Shown here one piece after another: positions 14,791-39,506 of a stretch of 39,506 nt of DNA. The position numbers were made by a program, and so were the translations under genes. The stretch is from Planctomycetales bacterium (GTDB lineage: Bacteria; Planctomycetota; Planctomycetia; Isosphaerales; Isosphaeraceae), in contig DAIDKV010000129.1 in the NCBI GenBank assembly GCA_027449865.1, positions 1 to 39,506 on the forward strand, written 5' to 3'. The stretch's first letter is position 1, and every line of letters begins with the position of its first letter. Under the pieces are notes generated by a model, which worked only from the letters and a program-made list of their open reading frames with translations, was not told the origin of the DNA and searched no databases.

Positions 14791-15102
14791 ATGGTCCACT
14801 TCACGTGCGATCTCTGTGGAAAGGACTTGAGCACTCCGGGGGAAGGCAGATACGTGGTCAAGATTGAGGCCTATCCCGGCTTCGACCCCACGGAGATCAA
14901 GGAAGATGACCTGGATGATGATCCGATGGAAGCGGTCGCTCAGATCCTTCAACGCGACGAGGCGGCGATCCTCTCTGAAGACCACTCTGAGCCGCTGCAC
15001 AAGGGTTTCCGATTCGACCTCTGCCCCTCGTGCCATCGCAAGTTTCTGAAGGACCCACTCGGCAAGGACGCGATCCGGTCGTTCGACTTCAGCAAGAACT
15101 GA
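14791..15102 (+). CDS. small zinc-ribbon-like hypothetical protein
   Basis: A 103-aa soluble protein with two Cys pairs, C6-x2-C9 (FTCDLCGK) and C78-x2-C81 (DLCPSCHRKF), enclosing an acidic stretch (EIKEDDLDDDPMEA). The pairs could hold one zinc ion with the chain folded back. No DNA-binding or catalytic motif is visible. It starts 7 nt after the YfhO-like stop, with a weak GAAGGA about 10 nt upstream of the ATG. A separate promoter candidate lies inside the preceding gene. The function is unknown. Confidence 0.75.
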   Translation: MVHFTCDLCGKDLSTPGEGRYVVKIEAYPGFDPTEIKEDDLDDDPMEAVAQILQRDEAAILSEDHSEPLHKGFRFDLCPSCHRKFLKDPLGKDAIRSFDFSKN

Positions 15103-15164
15103 CCGAGTGCCGACCGACCATCCAACGGCCCCCGCGAGCACCGACCGACCAAGATCGATCGCGT

Positions 15165-15213
15165 GCCAGCGGACGTCGATCGGTCGAGAAGGACACGATC
15201 GACGTCCGCTGGC
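15165..15213. terminator. perfect 18-bp inverted repeat between convergent genes
   Basis: The left arm GCCAGCGGACGTCGATCG (15165-15182) and its exact complement (15196-15213) enclose a 13-nt loop. The element sits between the zinc-ribbon gene (ends 15102) and the convergent HtrA gene (ends 15307). There is no T run, so it would act as a GC-rich bidirectional terminator or mRNA-end stabiliser. A protein-binding palindrome is the alternative. Confidence 0.6.
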
Positions 15214-15306
15214 CTCAACACTCGATCCTGGTGGTTCGTTTCGTTGCCTGGATTACGGCCTGCTCGTAAGCGATCAGACCGGGTATGCAGAGTGTGGGGT
15301 TTGTGC

Positions 15307-16536
15307 TCACGACTGCCCGAGCTGAACGGAGACATCCATTGGTTGTCCGTCGCGGACGACCGTAATGCGGATGGTCCTGCCGGGCTGGTGCTTTTCGATC
15401 TCGGTGAGTAGCTCTTCGAGAGTACGAACACGGACGTGCTCGATGGCGACAATGAGATCGGCGGCGTCGGGGTCGATCGAGCGTCGGAGGAAGCCGGGAG
15501 CGATCTGCTCGACGCGGACCTTCACGCCCTGGATGCCGGCACGGTCGGCGGGGCCGCCCTTGACCAGCGAGACAACCAGCAGGCCCTTTCCGGTCGCAAG
15601 GAACCGGGCGATCCCGAGATCCGCGCGGGTGACGTGGCCGTCGCGGATGAGTTGGTCGAGGATGCGGCGGATTCCGTTGATCGGGACTGCGAAGCTAATC
15701 CCGGCCGACTGGCCGACCTGGCTGACGATTGCCGTGTTCATCCCAATGACCTCGCCACGCGAGTTGAGCAGTGGGCCGCCCGAGTTTCCCGGGTTAATCG
15801 CGGCGTCGGTCTGGATGATCCCCTTGATCGTCCGGCCGTCGCGGGCCTTGAGCGAGCGTTCGAGGCTACTCACAATGCCAGAGGTGAGCGTTCGTTCCAG
15901 ACCGAACGGGTTTCCCAGCGCCAGGATCTTCTGGCCGACCATGACTCGAGACGAATCGCCGAAGGCGACCGGAACCATCTTCTCGGCCGGAGCGCCGATC
16001 TGGAGGACGGCGACGTCATTGGCGGCGTCGGCGCCAATGACCCTGGCGGGAAACTGCGAGCCGTCGTAGAGAGTCACACGGACGGTATCGGCGCCCTCCA
16101 CGACGTGAAAGTTTGTCAACACGTGACCGGCCTTGTCGAAGACGAAGCCCGAGCCGCTACCGGAGGTTGTGTCGTCGCCAAAGAAACCGATCTCGGTCGC
16201 TTCCGTGGTGATGTTCACCACGCTCTTGTTCACGGAAGCATAGACGCGGATATTGTTCCGCTCGTCGGAGTCGAGGCCGCGAAGGAGATCATCGGGATTG
16301 GGCGGCGGCGTGGCGGCAATCCCCGAGCCGGGGCCCGGCAGCGTGGGTAATTGAGCCGGTGGCGCAGGCTGAACCCGGGTCGCTTTTCGATTAAGGATTT
16401 GCGCCGGCGGCGGGATTTTGAGACCGAGCCTGTCACCGAAAAGGACCGCGACCAGGATCAGCGTCACCAGTACGGTGACGCCGTGCGCGACGATTTCCCG
16501 AACGCCCAAACCACGGACCGGCCTGTGATTCTCCAT
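15307..16536 (-). CDS. HtrA/DegP-type trypsin-like serine protease with PDZ domain
   Basis: A 409-aa membrane-anchored periplasmic protease. The start at 16536 (MENHRPVRGL) follows GGAGGGG by 6 nt. An N-terminal helix at about 17-34 (AHGVTVLVTLILVAVLFG) is followed by a Pro-rich linker. The protease domain spans about 95-290 with the triad H144 (TNFHVV), D174 (NDVAVL) and S252 (GNSGGP). A PDZ domain occupies about 305-405 (LGIARFLATGKGLLVVSLVKGGPADRAG...). This is the DegS/DegP arrangement with one PDZ domain, suited to envelope protein quality control. It is transcribed alone, convergent with the zinc-ribbon gene. Confidence 0.95.
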   Translation of the reverse strand: MENHRPVRGLGVREIVAHGVTVLVTLILVAVLFGDRLGLKIPPPAQILNRKATRVQPAPPAQLPTLPGPGSGIAATPPPNPDDLLRGLDSDERNNIRVYASVNKSVVNITTEATEIGFFGDDTTSGSGSGFVFDKAGHVLTNFHVVEGADTVRVTLYDGSQFPARVIGADAANDVAVLQIGAPAEKMVPVAFGDSSRVMVGQKILALGNPFGLERTLTSGIVSSLERSLKARDGRTIKGIIQTDAAINPGNSGGPLLNSRGEVIGMNTAIVSQVGQSAGISFAVPINGIRRILDQLIRDGHVTRADLGIARFLATGKGLLVVSLVKGGPADRAGIQGVKVRVEQIAPGFLRRSIDPDAADLIVAIEHVRVRTLEELLTEIEKHQPGRTIRITVVRDGQPMDVSVQLGQS

Positions 16537-16956
16537 GATGAGCCCCTCCGTACGACTCTCCGCGCGGGGTGACCAGTCCATCCGGGGCCCGCGTGGGTCC
16601 ACCTCGATTGCCGTCGTATCCCAATACCGTCATTATAGCAAGACCGGCCCGAGGCCCCGACCAATCGGAGTCCTTTCCGCGAGACCACGAAACACCTGGA
16701 GAACCTCCAGGGACAAGGGTTGGGTTTCGATGGCAGGCCATACGTATCTCTACGGTGAGAGCGTCTCGGGCACACCAACTTCCGCGTCGCGACGATCCGG
16801 CGCCCGCCGGTCGATTGCTCATGGCCGTCTCTCGAATACAACGAGCGGCGTGAGGCGATCGGCGAAGTTGGCACGGGGCCTTGTTTGGGGCCGGTCGATC
16901 AGCCATGCTGGGGCGATTGTCCGGGATCTCAGGGAGGGCGAAGGAGGTTGATACCG
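16537..16956. other. divergent intergenic region (htrA / mrr-like)
   Basis: About 420 nt between divergent genes with no convincing coding frame. On the minus strand a perfect TATAAT lies at 16632-16637, about 96 nt before the protease start, but I see no good -35 box at the right distance. On the plus side AAGGAGG precedes the nuclease start; no plus-strand promoter could be picked out. Confidence 0.4.
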
Positions 16957-17784
16957 ATGGAGTGCCTCGGTCCGCAATGCGCCTCGATGTTGCTAGACTG
17001 GATCAAGGCTCAGGCCGCCGGTGCCGGTGAGGCCGATCAAGGGATCACCACTCGCACCGTCCGCCAGGGTCTTCTCTGGAAATCGGCTCCCTATCAGGAG
17101 GATGCGCCGGCAATCCGAACGCCCGCCGAACTGGCCGGGGCACTGGAGCACTTGCAATATTCCGTCCACCGGCGCTATCAGAACCAGTTGACTCGCGCTG
17201 AGCGAGCCCGGCTGGATAACACCATCGATAACGCACTCTTCAAGGTGGATCGATACCTGGGACGGCTCGATCCTGAGGAGACGGCCCGCCACGAGGTCGA
17301 GGTCCGCGAACTTCGCGAGGCGATTCGAGAGGGACGTGAGCGGATCGAGCACCAGCACCGCCAGGCGAAACGGGCGGATCTAAAACTGGCGCAGCTTGCC
17401 TCGCTGACGCCCGAGTCGTTCGAGGAGTTTGCCGCGGAACTTTTTGAGGCCATGGGCTTCGAGGTGGAGACGGTCGGCGGGACAGGTGACGAGGGGGTCG
17501 ACCTCCGGCTCCGCCGTCGCGACGGGATGCTGGCCGTCGTTCAGTGCAAGTATCACAAGAAGGGGGTGGTCGGCTCTCCGGATCTTCAGAAATTCCTTGG
17601 GACGATCCATCACACCGGGAGCCACAAGGGCTTTTTTGTCACCACCAGCACGTTTTCGCTGGCAGCGGAGAAGTTCGCCGCCGAGCACCCGATCGAGTTG
17701 ATCGACGGGCCCCGGCTCGTCGAACTGGTCCACCAGGCGATGGGGCCGAAGGGGCGTCGGGAGCTGGAACCCACCTGGTTTTAA
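16957..17784 (+). CDS. Mrr-like restriction endonuclease-fold protein
   Basis: A 275-aa protein. The ATG at 16957 (MECLGPQCASM) follows AAGGAGG by 9 nt. The N-terminal half is mostly helical, and about 95-155 is a charged coiled-coil-like stretch (EETARHEVEVRELREAIREG...). The C-terminal domain, about 155-265, is an Mrr_cat-type PD-(D/E)xK nuclease: LTPESFEEFAAELFEAMGFEVE, then GTGDEGVDL with D182, then VVQCKY with Q196 and K198, and FFVTTSTFS. Mrr-family proteins cleave methylated or otherwise targeted DNA. No methylase or partner is adjacent, so it may be a stand-alone type IV-like enzyme or a DNA-repair nuclease. The catalytic motif looks intact. Confidence 0.88.
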   Translation: MECLGPQCASMLLDWIKAQAAGAGEADQGITTRTVRQGLLWKSAPYQEDAPAIRTPAELAGALEHLQYSVHRRYQNQLTRAERARLDNTIDNALFKVDRYLGRLDPEETARHEVEVRELREAIREGRERIEHQHRQAKRADLKLAQLASLTPESFEEFAAELFEAMGFEVETVGGTGDEGVDLRLRRRDGMLAVVQCKYHKKGVVGSPDLQKFLGTIHHTGSHKGFFVTTSTFSLAAEKFAAEHPIELIDGPRLVELVHQAMGPKGRRELEPTWF

Positions 17785-33685: not shown

Positions 33686-34982
33686 CGGAATCTCATTCGA
33701 CGCCGAGTCCATCCGGGCCGATTTCCCCGCCGTCGAGCGGGAGATCCACTCAGGTGTCTCTCTGGTCTACCTGGATTCGGCCGCGACGGCGATGAAGCCC
33801 TTGCCTGTGATCCAGGCTGTGCAAGAGTATGATAGCGAGTATTCGGCCAGTGTACACCGAGGCTTGCATACACTCAGTGAACGGGCTACGCAGGCCTACG
33901 AGTCGGCCCGTGAGCGGATTGCGAGGTTCGTTGGCGCGGCGGATCCGGCCTGCATCGTCTTCACGCGCGGTACAACCGAGTCGATCAATCTGGTCGCCGA
34001 GTCCTGGGGAGGGACGTTCCTCGGGCCGGGGGATGAAGTGCTCCTGACCCTGCTGGAGCATCACTCGAACCTGGTTCCCTGGCAGATGTTGGCCCGCAAG
34101 CGTGGGCTGACGCTCAAGTTCGTCGATGTTACCGACGACGGCCGGCTTGACCTCGAATCGTTCGATCGGCAGTTCTCGGACCGAGTTCGCCTGGTGGCGA
34201 TCACGGCGACCTCGAACGTACTGGGGACGATTCCGCCGCTCGATCAAATCGCGGCGCGGGTACGCGATTGCGGAGCGAAGCTGCTGGTTGACGCTGCTCA
34301 GGGTGTCGTTCACCGTCCGATCGACGTCACGGCTCCGTCCGTCGACTTTCTGACCTTCTCCGCGCACAAACTGTACGGCCCGACGGGCCTGGGAGTGCTC
34401 TACGCCCGTCGAGAGCACCTGGAGGCGATGCCTCCAATGCTGGGCGGGGGTAACATGGTCCTGCGGGTTGATCTCGAAGGCGCCGATTGGAACGAGATCC
34501 CGTGGAAGTTCGAGGCCGGCACGCCGCCCATCGCACAGGCGATTGGCCTTGGGGCCGCCATCGACTATCTCGGGCGGTTCGACCGGTCGGCCCTCTCGGC
34601 CCACGAAGAAGCGTTGACGCATTACGCCTGGCGAATTCTTTCCGAACTCGAAGGCGTGCGGCTTCTTGGGCCTGATCCCCACAATGTTGGCCGGGCCGGA
34701 ATCCTGAGTTTCCTGGTCGAGGGGATCCACCCGCATGATCTCGCGCAACTGCTCGATCGAGACGGGGTGGCCATCCGAGCCGGGCACCATTGTGCCATGC
34801 CGTTACACCATCGCCTCGGACTCCCCGCCTCGGCCCGAGCGAGCCTCGCCCTCTACAACAACGCCGCGGACATCGATCGGCTGGCCGTAGCCATCGAGCG
34901 TGCGAGGTGGACCCTGCGCCGCCCGTTGGGCCAGCCGAGACCAGCACTGATGCCGACGCACCCAGAGGTGAAAAATGGATGA
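33633..34982 (+). CDS. sufS: SufS-type cysteine desulfurase
   Basis: A PLP-dependent group II cysteine desulfurase that supplies sulfur for Fe-S cluster assembly. The conserved part starts at SFDAESIRADFPAVEREIHSGVSLVYLDSAAT. No ATG precedes it; GTG 33633 with GGAGGAGG 11 nt upstream is my choice (449 aa), and a TTG at 33546 would add about 29 residues. Seen motifs: FTRGTTESINLVAESWG, LEHHSNLVPWQ, LVDAAQGVVHRPIDV, the PLP Lys K246 in SAHKLYGPTGLGVLY, and the active-site Cys C387 in IRAGHHCAMPLHHRLG. Its stop overlaps the sufU start by 8 nt, the usual SufS-SufU pairing. No sufBCD genes are in the window. Confidence 0.94.
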   Translation: MESSTNVEEALGCGPGRIGISFDAESIRADFPAVEREIHSGVSLVYLDSAATAMKPLPVIQAVQEYDSEYSASVHRGLHTLSERATQAYESARERIARFVGAADPACIVFTRGTTESINLVAESWGGTFLGPGDEVLLTLLEHHSNLVPWQMLARKRGLTLKFVDVTDDGRLDLESFDRQFSDRVRLVAITATSNVLGTIPPLDQIAARVRDCGAKLLVDAAQGVVHRPIDVTAPSVDFLTFSAHKLYGPTGLGVLYARREHLEAMPPMLGGGNMVLRVDLEGADWNEIPWKFEAGTPPIAQAIGLGAAIDYLGRFDRSALSAHEEALTHYAWRILSELEGVRLLGPDPHNVGRAGILSFLVEGIHPHDLAQLLDRDGVAIRAGHHCAMPLHHRLGLPASARASLALYNNAADIDRLAVAIERARWTLRRPLGQPRPALMPTHPEVKNG

Positions 34983-35397
34983 CATGCTCTACCGTGAAGA
35001 AATCCTCGAGCGTTATTACGCCGCGCCTCGACGTGGCCGGCTGGAGGCGCCGGATCGGTCGGCCGAGCTTGACAATCCGCTTTGCGGCGATCGAATTCGC
35101 CTGGAACTCACCCTTGGAGCGGGCGGCCAGATCATCGCGGTCCGGTTCGACGGGGATGGCTGCGTCATCAGCCAGGTCGCGGCGTCGATCCTCGCCGAGC
35201 ATATCGAAGGAATGGCGGTCGACGAGGCTCGACGCCTCCCAGCCGACAAGGCTGTTGGGTTGCTCGGAATTCCCCTGAGCCCAGCCCGGGTCAAGTGCGG
35301 GATTCTGGCCTGGCGGGCCCTGCAACGTGCCCTGACAGCGACTGCGGATCCGGCCTCCGGCGGACCCAGCATGGATCTCTCCCTGTCCACAGGATGA
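34975..35397 (+). CDS. sufU: SufU-type Fe-S assembly sulfurtransferase/scaffold
   Basis: A 140-aa NifU/IscU-fold protein. The ATG at 34975 lies within the last codons of sufS, with GAGG about 7 nt upstream, implying coupled translation. The three conserved Cys are C37 in NPLCGDR, with the following acidic residue D39, C63 in GCVISQ, and C108 in RVKCGILAW. In Firmicutes SufU these positions bind zinc and accept persulfide from SufS. The 18-21-residue insertion relative to IscU (EHIEGMAVDEARRLPADKAVGLLGIPLSPARVKC) is the SufU hallmark. Together with SufS it forms a sulfur-transfer pair, with the SufBCD scaffold presumably encoded elsewhere. Confidence 0.93.
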   Translation: MDDMLYREEILERYYAAPRRGRLEAPDRSAELDNPLCGDRIRLELTLGAGGQIIAVRFDGDGCVISQVAASILAEHIEGMAVDEARRLPADKAVGLLGIPLSPARVKCGILAWRALQRALTATADPASGGPSMDLSLSTG

Positions 35398-36057
35398 ATC
35401 CTCGTCGAACGACCCTCTCACGGGGACGTCTCTTTGTAACTCCTTATTTTGGAACGAGTTGTAGTGAATCGGAATCGCCGCTGATCCACTGGCCCCGTAC
35501 GGATCGGAGAAAACCGGAGCGGCCTTGAGGATCACTGGCCGCCCGGGACGGTTCCACATTGGCCTCACCTTGATGGTGACGTGCGTGAGCCACCCGTCCT
35601 TTCGCGAGGAAGTGGCTCCTCCCCACTCGGACCCGACAAATCGATCGGGAACCCCATCCCATCGGTTCGCAAGAAGCCCCAAGAATGGTCCCCCTAATAT
35701 TCCCATGAACAGCGTACACGCACGGGCTTTGCAGGCTGTTCCCATTCTCGAATAGTCCCCCTGCCATTTTGAGAAGAAAAGTTGCAGTATCGACAGCCCT
35801 CCGACCGAGAGAAGGCTGGGCGGGCCAATCGTTGGATGTTGTAAGTTCTTGCTGGCATGGAACTTGTGGTCCGATTTTTCGGCATTTTGACGAACTGGCA
35901 TCCGGTATGCAATACCATCTGCTCGACCTGAGCGGCGAAGGCCGCGAGCATCCCGGCGGCTAGAGAAAGTCGGGATCGCCAGAACGAATACGAAACCGTG
36001 AGCAGGTGAACCGGGCTTGAAGGATAGCCTCGGGTCGAGAATCATGGAGGTCCGAAG
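35398..36057. other. intergenic region upstream of csrA
   Basis: About 660 nt with no gene that I can support. Open frames on both strands (for example 35525-35755 plus and 35444-35767 minus) lack ribosome sites and have mixed codon use. It may hold a long csrA regulatory region; a sigma-54-like motif pair is listed separately. Confidence 0.4.
35853..35911 (+). promoter_or_regulatory. tandem sigma-54-like motifs upstream of csrA
   Basis: TGGCATG-N4-TTGTG at 35853-35868 and TGGCATC-N4-ATGCA at 35896-35911 both resemble the sigma-54 -24/-12 form (TGGCAC-N5-TTGC), with one or two mismatches each. They lie about 150-190 nt before csrA. A chance match is possible. Confidence 0.28.
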
Positions 36058-36249
36058 ATGCTGGTACTGAGCCGCAAGATCAACGAGAAGATCGTCATCG
36101 ACGGGAACATCGTCATCACGGTCGTTAAGATCGATCGCAATCATGTCCGGATCGGGATCGAGGCTCCGGGCGACGTCCGCGTTTTCCGCGAGGAGATCCT
36201 GAACAACTCCGTTCGACATGCGGAGGAGGCTCTCGCGGCGGGCGTTTGA
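36058..36249 (+). CDS. csrA: carbon storage regulator CsrA
   Basis: A 63-aa RNA-binding regulator, full length for the family. MLVLSRKINEKIVIDGNIVITVVKI and GIEAPGDVRVFREEI match CsrA closely, including the first strand (LVLSRK) and the C-terminal VRVFREE region whose Arg contacts GGA motifs in RNA. CsrA dimers repress or stabilise mRNAs controlling carbon storage, motility and surface attachment. GGAGG lies 7 nt upstream of the ATG. It stands alone with a long upstream region, and no FliW gene is adjacent. Confidence 0.97.
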   Translation: MLVLSRKINEKIVIDGNIVITVVKIDRNHVRIGIEAPGDVRVFREEILNNSVRHAEEALAAGV

Positions 36250-36608
36250 GCCATCAAACATTCGTATCGTGTCCTGATGCTCGCGCACCTGGTAGCAGGG
36301 GCCCAATGGATCCCTCCAGGTTTTAACCCCCCCATCGCAGCCACATGCACGCGGCGCGGCCCACGAAGACGTGGGCGCTCCCACCCTCAAATCGAGAATC
36401 GCACCTGTTTCCCCGGGTTTCCGATTCGGTAGGAATCGATCGGGTTCGGATGCGTGATCGAGCGATTGGATTCCATGGACGACGAGGCGGGAACGCCGGA
36501 TGGTCTTGCTCGACCTTTCCATGTAAACGCCTCGCGCGCAGGACTCTACCCACCCCCCGGCCGTTCTCACCAGACGCCTTCCGACGCCCCAGTCCCCAGC
36601 CACTCACA
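36250..36608. other. intergenic region after csrA with a small hairpin
   Basis: No gene is supported here. The palindrome GCCCAC-GAAGAC-GTGGGC (36359-36376) forms a perfect six-base-pair stem and looks like a dispersed short hairpin element. Confidence 0.4.
36287..36324 (+). terminator. candidate terminator after csrA
   Basis: ACCTGG (36287-36292) pairs with CCAGGT (ending 36321), with an inner AGGG/CCCT pairing offset by a bulge. The 3' arm runs into TTTT. It lies about 40 nt after the csrA stop. Confidence 0.4.
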
Positions 36609-36764
36609 CGCTCTGAACCCGACATGAGCGTCGCAGCAATCTCCTACTCCACAAGGCCTTGCGTCATCAGCAACCGGGCTTGTCACCGGAAAGTCACCGA
36701 AATCTGGGCAGGCTTCACAGGTTGCGATGGCTTCTCGCAGGCTGCTACGGATTCTCACAGATTT
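36609..36764. repeat. direct repeat, left copy, about 155 bp
   Basis: This segment matches 39045-39199 in the same orientation. It is near-identical over the first 30 nt and over GCGTCATCAGCAACCGGG through GTCACCGAAAT (36661-36702), and weaker in between. On the minus strand both copies encode the peptide pattern CPDFGDFPVTSPVADDA...C...CCDAHVGFRA. With the right copy it brackets the four-gene cassette. Confidence 0.88.
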
Positions 36765-36819: not shown

Positions 36820-37365
36820 TCAATCGGGCACATGGACATCGAACGATATTGACCAACCGTTATCCCTCGGTACCAGCGCATCATCCTTATTCGCGCCCTC
36901 CAAGGTCTGGCACATGGCGCGATACATCAGCCTAGTCAAGGTGGCCGCCGCGTCCAGTTCCTCCTTAATCCCGACGAGTTCGTCGAGCAACATCGCCCGG
37001 CCTCCTTCGGTCTTCAGGTCGTCGCTCCGCTCCACGAAGAACCGATGGATCAGGAAATTTCGCTTCTCCAGTGCTGTCGCCATGAGACCGCGAACGTCCA
37101 ACTTCCACCGCTCGTTGGGATTGATCGTCACAAACTTGTCGAACTCCTTCAGCAGCACGCCCAGCGTTTTCTTCTGCTTTTTCACGGCGGCCGGTTCCAA
37201 GTCGGCCAGTGTGACGCTCTTATTGCAGAGCCGATTGTACGCGGTCAGGAACTCGACCAGCGCCTCCTCGAAGAGTTGCGCGTGCTGGGCCGCCCAGCCA
37301 AAGCAGGCGAAGACCCCGATCAGGTGTCCTTCTTCCTCCTCCAACATTTCGAGCGATTCGGACAT
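36820..37365 (-). CDS. HEPN-motif protein of the repeat-bounded cassette
   Basis: A 181-aa helical protein. The ATG at 37365 (MSESLEMLEEEEGHL) has GGAGG 8 nt upstream; the frame extends to 37443 without a ribosome site. Residues about 20-45 (ACFGWAAQHAQLFEEALVEFL) and 90-115 (VRGLMATALEKRNFLIHRFFVE) are amphipathic helices. RNFLIH fits the R-x4-H signature of HEPN-domain ribonucleases, which act in toxin-antitoxin and antiphage systems. HEPN folds also occur in non-nuclease proteins, so activity is inference. It is the last gene of the minus-strand cassette, 81 nt after the 109-aa gene. I know similar uncharacterised proteins exist in other bacteria but have no name for the family. Confidence 0.72.
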   Translation of the reverse strand: MSESLEMLEEEEGHLIGVFACFGWAAQHAQLFEEALVEFLTAYNRLCNKSVTLADLEPAAVKKQKKTLGVLLKEFDKFVTINPNERWKLDVRGLMATALEKRNFLIHRFFVERSDDLKTEGGRAMLLDELVGIKEELDAAATLTRLMYRAMCQTLEGANKDDALVPRDNGWSISFDVHVPD

Positions 37366-37446
37366 AGCGGCGTCCTCCAGTGGAAGCTTGTATCGGCCTT
37401 CTGGACTACCGAGCATCTGTATGATGCTGTCTTGGTGCCGCAAGAC

Positions 37447-37776
37447 TCACGAGTCAAGGGCGTTCACAAGCCTATTTGCTGCTTCGAAAAGTGTCTGAGA
37501 TTCCTCTACGCGTTCTTCGCCATCCAGTACCGCGACGACCTCACGGAGGTTCGCGATTTCGCAACGGACAGTCTCCCGAGCGTCAGCGCCTTCGGAGGCC
37601 TGATATTCCACAAGGAGATTGCCGAGTGTTTCGGGCAGACTCGGGATGGAAAAGGAAATGAGCAGACCATACAACTGATCATTTTCTTCCGATGCCCTCT
37701 TGTCGAAATTGGACGCCAAGACCCTCAAATGCTCCTTGGTGTTCTTGAGAGCCTCACGGACGGTAAGCATCGCCAT
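37447..37776 (-). CDS. small helical protein of the repeat-bounded cassette
   Basis: A 109-aa soluble protein starting at 37776 (MAMLTVREALKNTKEHL), with AAGGGAG 9 nt upstream. It is predicted almost all helical and acidic (LASNFDKRASEENDQLYGLLISF; NLREVVAVLDGEERVEESQTLFEAANRLVNAL), with one Cys and no catalytic motif. Its size, charge and position next to the HEPN-motif gene would suit an antitoxin or structural partner, but no antitoxin family signature is visible. A longer start at 37833 lacks a ribosome site. Confidence 0.6.
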   Translation of the reverse strand: MAMLTVREALKNTKEHLRVLASNFDKRASEENDQLYGLLISFSIPSLPETLGNLLVEYQASEGADARETVRCEIANLREVVAVLDGEERVEESQTLFEAANRLVNALDS

Positions 37777-37917
37777 GCTGTCATGCTCCCTTAGGATGGA
37801 ATGAACGGCACCCCCACACAGCTTATCACACATTCCTGAAGTGGACAGCCCGCTCCGCTGGCCGCAGTTGCCTTCCCGAGCACCAACCGGGCTGCAGCAG
37901 TCTCCTTCGGACGCTGC

Positions 37918-38169
37918 TCATCCAGGTGAGCCAGGGTTGTGTTTATCAAGGTTCAGGGTGAGCTTCTTCTCAAGTGCTCGGACGTAGTTCACGAGCTTCC
38001 GAAGCTCATCCAAGTCCATTTCGACGCAGGTAGGTGCGTCCGGGTGGACTGAATCGGGCTTCACCAAGTCGTCTTCCTCTACCAAGTCTTCAATAATGCG
38101 CAGGACATCTTCTGCCGTGCTTTGGTAGGGAGTCGGACCGAACGACGTCTGTATCACGTTATTATCCAT
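37918..38169 (-). CDS. acidic 83-aa protein of the repeat-bounded cassette
   Basis: An 83-aa acidic protein (AEDVLRIIEDLVEEDDLVKPDS; EMDLDELRKLVNYVRALEKKL) with a probable C-terminal helix pair. A weak GGGGCG lies about 6-10 nt before the ATG. It lies between the membrane-protein gene (69 nt upstream) and the 109-aa gene (141 nt downstream), all on the minus strand. No family was recognised. Co-orientation and a gene-like hydrophobic pattern support its being real, though a short ORF could arise by chance. Confidence 0.5.
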   Translation of the reverse strand: MDNNVIQTSFGPTPYQSTAEDVLRIIEDLVEEDDLVKPDSVHPDAPTCVEMDLDELRKLVNYVRALEKKLTLNLDKHNPGSPG

Positions 38170-38238: not shown

Positions 38239-38745
38239 TCAAGCGTTATCTGCTGCCTCCGTGCGGCGGCGGGGACGCTCGTCCAGAATCCTACGTGCCT
38301 CTGCTATGTCATGTTCGAATGCCCTAGCTATCAGGATTCTCTTAACAAAGACAACCGAGCTTAGCGTACTTGCAAGATAGAGCGTAATACCAACACCAAC
38401 AAAGAATACGCCAATTTCACTAATATGCCGACCATGAAGCAGGTAAATTGCACACATGTTTCCGATGGCGCCACACAGCAAGAAAATTATGGCCTTTATC
38501 CAGAGACCATTCTCAAAATGGCTCAAGTAATAGCGGTATTCTTTGTCCTTTATGTAGCGGTCAATTCTCTGCTGTCTCTCAAGTCGCCTCTCAACCGTCC
38601 TGGTAGCATACCAGGTCGATAATGAGCCGAGGATTCCATCGGCGCGCGGCTTCAAATAGTCGGAAGCGAGATTGATGAGGACTCCTACCAGGACAACGCC
38701 CAACCACCAGTGGAAGGAAGTCACATCATGGACAAATTCGGTCAT
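38239..38745 (-). CDS. three-helix membrane protein of the repeat-bounded cassette
   Basis: A 168-aa protein, the first gene of the cassette, with CGAGGG 4 nt before the ATG. Hydrophobic helices lie at about 12-30 (FHWWLGVVLVGVLINLASDYL), 82-105 (LWIKAIIFLLCGAIGNMCAIYLL) and 111-135 (IGVFFVGVGITLYLASTLSSVVFV). A highly basic stretch lies between helices 1 and 2 (RTVERRLERQQRIDRYIKDKEYRYYL), and the tail is charged (ERPRRRTE). I recognise no family. The codon usage is much less GC-biased than the rest of the window (third positions often A/T), pointing to transfer. A membrane effector beside a HEPN-motif protein recalls defence cassettes, but that is only analogy. Confidence 0.68.
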   Translation of the reverse strand: MTEFVHDVTSFHWWLGVVLVGVLINLASDYLKPRADGILGSLSTWYATRTVERRLERQQRIDRYIKDKEYRYYLSHFENGLWIKAIIFLLCGAIGNMCAIYLLHGRHISEIGVFFVGVGITLYLASTLSSVVFVKRILIARAFEHDIAEARRILDERPRRRTEAADNA

Positions 38746-39044
38746 GTTGCCCTCGAGGTAAACGGGAGCAGTCGCACCTAGGGGCTACCACTCTACCAAG
38801 CAGGCTCTCGAAAATCAGCGCGAACCCGCTGCCTCTCTCCTGCATCTGAGAGGGTGACGCAAACATCAAATAGTAAACCGAACAAGCATCTGATCAGTCG
38901 CCACGGCGCGCACCGTTTACGCCAAAAATCGACCCGTGGAGGAGGTTACATTCAGAAGTGCCGGCTGCAGGCGAGTCCAGTTAAACCATTTCGCCGCAAC
39001 CCCTTGGTAGAATGACAGTTGTAACGACGATCCAGAGACGGACG
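38746..39044. other. region upstream of the cassette
   Basis: About 300 nt between the first cassette gene and the right repeat, relatively AT-rich and probably holding the cassette promoter. I could not pick out a -35/-10 pair with confidence. Confidence 0.35.
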
Positions 39045-39199
39045 CGCTCTGAACCCGACATGAGCGTCGCAGCAACCAATTCCGCCACAAGGATTTGCGT
39101 CATCAGCAACCGGGCTTGTCACCGGAAAGTCACCGAAATCCGGGCAATCTCCACAGGATGCGACGGTTCGCTACGAATCACCACGGATTCTCATAGATT
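39045..39199. repeat. direct repeat, right copy, about 155 bp
   Basis: This is the partner of 36609-36764 in the same orientation, with a conserved core from GCGTCATCAGC through CACCGAAAT (39097-39139). It includes the last codons and the stop of the minus-strand helix-turn-helix fragment. The left copy carries a decayed form of the same tail (VRIRSS versus MRIRGDS). Confidence 0.88.
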
Positions 39200-39396
39200 C
39201 CATGGCTTTCGTGATGGCGAGTTCAACCATCGGCGGTATGTCCTTCTTCCCCGCCAACCACCGCCTGACCGTTCGGGGGCTAACCTTCTTGCCCGACGAC
39301 CGGCCAGGAAGCATCCGGGCGAGCTTGGATTGGCCGCCCGGATTCAGTGAGTTGCAGATTGAGCGAAGCTCGTGTCCTTCCGGTAAGCCTGCCTGA
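39171..39396 (-). pseudogene. helix-turn-helix DNA-binding protein fragment
   Basis: The minus frame ending at TAG 39171-39173 reads ELRSICNSLNPGGQSKLARM, LPGRSSGKKVSPRTVRRWL, then AGKKDIPPMVELAITKAMES. QSKLARMLPG...VSPRTVRRWLAGKKDIPP is a clear helix-turn-helix pattern: a QxxLAR first helix and a TVRRWLAG recognition helix. The frame is open upstream for about 35 more codons but contains no ATG, GTG or TTG before the ATG at 39314. That ATG lies inside the domain and would give only 47 aa. So the gene is 5'-truncated, uses a rare start, or is a domain relic. It lies beside and overlaps the right direct repeat. Confidence 0.6.
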
Positions 39397-39447
39397 ATCG
39401 TCGCGGGGGATTTGCTACGGTGGCGGTCCTCATTCGGGAGGATCGCG

Positions 39448-39506
39448 ATGGATACGACTCCGCACCGCCAACGGCCTGCCGATCTGGTCCGGGCTCAGCA
39501 ACGCTT
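39448..39506 (+). CDS. 5' end of a gene cut off by the window edge
   Basis: The ATG at 39448 with GGGAGG about 6 nt upstream opens a frame (MDTTPHRQRPADLVRAQQR) that runs off the window. The strong ribosome site is the main support. Too little is present to suggest a function. It is divergent from the helix-turn-helix fragment. Confidence 0.45.
   Translation, partial: MDTTPHRQRPADLVRAQQR

Follow-up and report, generated by a model that had tools for sequence, protein, structure and literature searches.

The missing start of a helix-turn-helix (HTH) frame is very probably explained by an IS66-family element that split an HTH gene, and the direct repeat at the 3' end of the frame may represent the ends of small integrative units. 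The window, the whole stretch of 39,506 nucleotides that was analysed, is the entire contig C129 of a 278-contig draft. The HTH fragment is an ordinary IS66 disruption, and the tandem units rest on few copies. A false lead is thereby removed, as the start-less regulator reflects an insertion that happens to coincide with a contig break. Attention shifts to the copies of the repeat as possible ends of small mobile units in tandem. If true, this bacterial group would have a compact cassette-like mobile unit with phage-type cargo.

The HTH frame lies on the minus strand and is open from 39494 to a TAG stop codon at 39171-39173, located within the repeat. None of its ATG, GTG or TTG codons would give a product of at least 60 residues. 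The initial annotation had described such a frame without a normal start, and homologues now confirm it (E 9.6e-11). By itself the open frame says little for a gene, since 8.2% of the shuffled versions of the 66-codon HTH piece (5000 shuffles) were stop-free as well; the real evidence comes from homology. Two matches in the genome G041 have E values of 9.6e-11 and 1.2e-10, and the homologues belong to the same bacterial family. A profile of six rows was searched against 45 genomes and gave 18 matches in 14 other genomes (15 of 45 with the window's own genome included), with the limits that five of the 18 are rows from which the profile was built and that three (L135, L138 and L144) appear cut or partial. 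A further candidate in G025 (L037) was dropped because it runs antisense to a longer ORF. The nearest start is ATG in 13 homologues, GTG in three and TTG in two, 11 of the 13 ATG codons fall exactly at model position 1, and the N-termini read MTPxELR or similar. Homologues of intact length with a conserved non-canonical start had been named as an outcome that would speak against a truncated gene; intact length was found, but the starts are mostly ordinary ATG codons (13/18). Judged by this homology, the fragment at 39174-39371 (minus strand, 66 codons including a target site duplication) corresponds to the 3' part of an ordinary HTH gene of about 70 codons.

What kind of regulator was it? The fragment matches the Pfam family YdaS (PF15943) with an E value of 5.4e-5, at 23.4 bits and thus below the cut-off of 30, and its turn exceeds that of four of the five aligned homologues by 7 residues. 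No relatives were confirmed in the viral and genome contig collections, a tblastn search against phages returned nothing but NO16-type Vibrio phages (E 0.2-0.3), and a PDB sequence search gave no match. A single-sequence structure prediction for the fragment on its own is of low quality (pLDDT 63) and adds no weight. From the family resemblance, the product of the intact gene was probably a DNA-binding, phage-type Cro/YdaS-like regulator that served its own small element; as split, the gene is most likely inactive now.

The last 135 bases of the window, from exactly 39372, are 99-100% identical to seven other contig ends. All eight ends, that of the window included, share the common edge at 39372, and their flanks are different and unrelated. 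The copy on C145 runs on and encodes an IS66-type TnpB (PF05717, 2e-29; NF033819, 7e-30). The stretch 39372-39506 on the plus strand is thus assigned to the left end of an IS66-family insertion sequence with a putative tnpA ATG at 39448, and the contig breaks inside it. The terminal inverted repeats, GTGTCCTTCCGGTAAGCC and GTGTCCTTTCGGCAGCC, begin GTGTCC and agree at 19 of the first 30 ungapped positions. Directly beside the element, at 39364-39371, lies an 8-bp target site duplication, CGAAGCTC, the second copy of which stands next to the right end of the insertion sequence on contig C196. The right end followed by CGAAGCTC occurs without mismatch once in the genome, at C196 27541-27554. When the eight left and seven right ends of the element were compared, three of the 56 pairings shared 8 bp, where chance would give 0.00085; the end in the window pairs with C196 only. 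A target duplication of 8 bp is reported for IS66 in PMC6778807. Two further IS66-type insertions in the same genome (G000), C41/C4 (L008/L064) and C185/C125 (L006/L066), are also paired by 8-bp duplications. Such pairing could bridge several breaks of the draft assembly.

On C196, the sequence past the duplication reads ATGACCCCCTACGAGCTTCG, in which the ATG of the HTH gene overlaps the stop codon of a 191-aa gene as ATGA. This ATG is at the position where the HTH homologues start. The predicted genes form a small operon of an 86-aa ORF, the 191-aa ORF and the HTH gene, with the HTH gene last. The HTH fragment thus lacks a start because an insertion at 39371/39372 cut off its 5' part; neither duplication nor decay accounts for the missing start. 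The first 8 codons of the 75-residue frame first described are sequence of the insertion element, which starts at 39372. That the frame is nevertheless intact and begins at a non-canonical codon inside the end of the insertion sequence has a negligible probability; the frame does stay open into the element as far as 39494, but the extra residues come from a sequence common to eight unrelated contig ends, and the homologues start at the ATG position located on C196. The preferred reading remains that of a gene split by insertion. In this reading, the IS66-family element inserted within codons 5-7 of the HTH gene, duplicating 8 bp and carrying the start away. The assembly broke inside this multicopy element, which left the 5' end of the HTH gene on C196.

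The join between C196 and C129 is supported by the duplication, the reading frame and synteny, and it should be read as a predicted join, as the insertion sequence is not spanned by any single contig. As independent evidence of synteny, contig C916 of G001, a genome of the same genus, holds homologues of both flanks, of window positions 34002-36385 at 80% and of C196 positions 15000-17208 at 84%. The site in G001 is not a clean empty site, since most of a 2812-aa gene is gone and other sequence is found there. The 2812-aa ORF itself (L073 2018-10456, minus, on C196) borders the island, and only its last 63 residues were matched in G001, in the same place.

The repeat has to be considered apart from the gene that runs into it. 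The right copy (39042-39199) and the left copy (36606-36763) are identical at 129 of 158 positions, and in the next 60 nt beyond the repeat the similarity drops to 14/60. The initial annotation took the repeat to contain the 3' end of the regulator gene, which holds in so far as the last 8 codons and the stop codon lie in the right copy. The repeat does not, however, derive from the regulator: these codons and the stop are the only part of the HTH gene inside it, the HTH motif is outside, and most of the right copy lies past the stop. The left copy had been read as a decayed form of the same tail, and it does give a similar reading (KSVRIRSS, compared with ESMRIRGDS* in the right copy), but it has no stop codon and no HTH before it. 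A third tail is found on contig C50 beside a tRNA cluster, so that two of the three tail copies, the left and the C50 copy, are without a stop and without an HTH in front. Among the 18 fetched HTH homologue loci in 14 other genomes, none carries the tail or the head described below. It is therefore very unlikely that the repeat represents the regulator's 3' end and that a duplication of this end, or an insertion at it, gave rise to the cassette; this origin has in its favour the 8 codons and stop in the right copy and the similar reading in the left, and against it the homologues without the repeat (0/18), the two tails without an HTH, the extent of the repeat past the stop and the loss of similarity beyond it. 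Because the homologues lack the tail and the left and C50 copies lack a stop or HTH, the tail does not represent the end of the HTH gene, nor does the left copy represent a decayed HTH gene.

Each tail has two GGTRAC-like repeats 11 bp apart, which in the right copy form a GGTGAC direct repeat; these may be arm-type integrase sites. Searches with the tail patterns gave no match in the genome or viral contig collections, and blastn of window positions 39030-39205 gave no match in plasmids. No further copies of tail or head were kept from 44 other genomes of the family. Weak tail-model matches in G035, G020 (two) and G016, with E values of 0.005-0.009, were dropped since their loci contain neither the 8-base core string nor the GGTGACTTT motif, and matches of 21 and 23 nt in G002 and G065, among 58 relatives searched, were dropped as they involve the end of the query that is GC-rich and terminator-like. 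At the other end of the contig, positions 1-176 of the window consist of four tandem copies of a 44-bp unit.

What the repeat copies have in common is a 10-bp core, GTTCAGAGCG, which is present in all four copies, on C196, at 39045 and 36609 in the window, and on C50. At this same core, two of the four copies have tail and core, one has head and core, and one has tail, core and head. The last of these is in the window, where the core at 39045-39054 (minus strand) forms the junction between two units: the right repeat copy is the tail of unit 1, and the segment 38818-39061 (minus strand) is the head of unit 2, which shares 77% identity with C196 26168-26413 over 249 aligned positions. Read in the minus direction, the order is chromosome, core, head, the genes of unit 1 (86 aa, 191 aa and the HTH gene with the insertion sequence), tail, core, head, the genes of unit 2 (168, 83, 128 and 207 aa), tail, core and chromosome. 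The left repeat copy is thus the tail of unit 2, on the minus strand like that of unit 1, with its core at 36609-36618 followed by the chromosome. Direct repeats of the core are present at both ends of the units. Unit 2 measures 2436 bp from core to core and unit 1, with the insertion sequence left out, about 1.7 kb, and the conserved ends are heads of about 245 nt and tails of about 160 nt.

The cargo between these ends differs. A 21-nt match on the C196 side (E 0.003) and a match on the window side (E 0.008) are the only similarities, neither of them of note. The ORFs of unit 2, all on the minus strand, encode 168 aa (38239-38745, no informative family match), 83 aa (37918-38169), 128 aa (37447-37833) and 207 aa (36820-37443), the last of which matches PHROG 12893 (E 5e-8). 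The 191-aa protein encoded upstream of the HTH start (L073 11958-12533, plus, on C196) has relatives with 35% identity in the Pseudomonas phages MR13 and MR15. Because of these relatives and the PHROG match, the units are assigned phage-type cargo. About 1.3 kb from the C50 tail, a 136-aa ORF (L074 8742-9152, minus) matches the TIR domain of CAP12/Pycsar effectors (PF10137, 7.6e-26; PHROG 16442, 8.8e-41), which is possible defence cargo of another unit. None of the 7 unit ORFs matches an integrase, and of the 18 tyrosine recombinases in the genome none lies within a unit or close to a copy of the tail or head. The units were seen in one genome only, with 44 other genomes of the family and 58 relatives searched.

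The four repeat copies would fit the ends of two small tandem units that resemble att-flanked islands. Units 1 and 2 would lie head to tail and meet at GTTCAGAGCG, and in each of them cargo of its own would be enclosed by a conserved head and a conserved tail. A site-specific recombinase that either acted from elsewhere or has since been lost probably inserted them. That small integrative units have this repeat as their conserved end is, on the strength of four ends, somewhat favoured. The two tails could instead be remnants of related phage-like elements that were joined by homologous recombination or decay with no site-specific system involved. This is a less probable but serious alternative, as no recombinase lies beside any copy, the cargo has phage relatives and few copies are known, but all four copies split at one and the same 10-bp core, the pattern expected from site-specific recombination, and the cargo differs completely between conserved ends. 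Two small sets of cargo on the same strand, with a repeat after each, might also recall integron cassettes with attC sites, but the coding strand of 38951-39205 has one RYYYAAC sequence (GTTTAAC) and no GTTRRRY partner, and this origin is extremely improbable. Conserved heads of 245 nt are not known as a feature of attC. For the integrative units, a bolder proposal would be that integrase-less units of 1.7-2.4 kb, with conserved 245-nt heads and 160-nt tails and joined at GTTCAGAGCG, occur as tandem arrays that a recombinase moves in trans, as a cassette system distinct from integrons and possibly with phage-related and defence genes; this is speculative and we consider it unlikely as it stands.

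The three components can be compared with known systems. The element at the right end of the window resembles IS66-family insertion sequences in its IS66-type TnpB, its 8-bp target duplications and its terminal repeats, and in the parts covered shows nothing notably different from them. Like the YdaS/Cro-like prophage regulators (PF15943), the HTH gene would encode a small stand-alone HTH protein, with a weak match to the family, but it scores under the Pfam cut-off and its turn is longer. YdaS is named a toxin in Pfam, but PMC5917428 argues for a Cro-type prophage regulator. The units resemble tandem integrated genomic islands, such as SGI1, in their head-to-tail arrangement with a short core at each junction; they differ from these islands in that they are only 1.7 and 2.4 kb, have ends of about 245 and 160 nt and carry no integrase gene.
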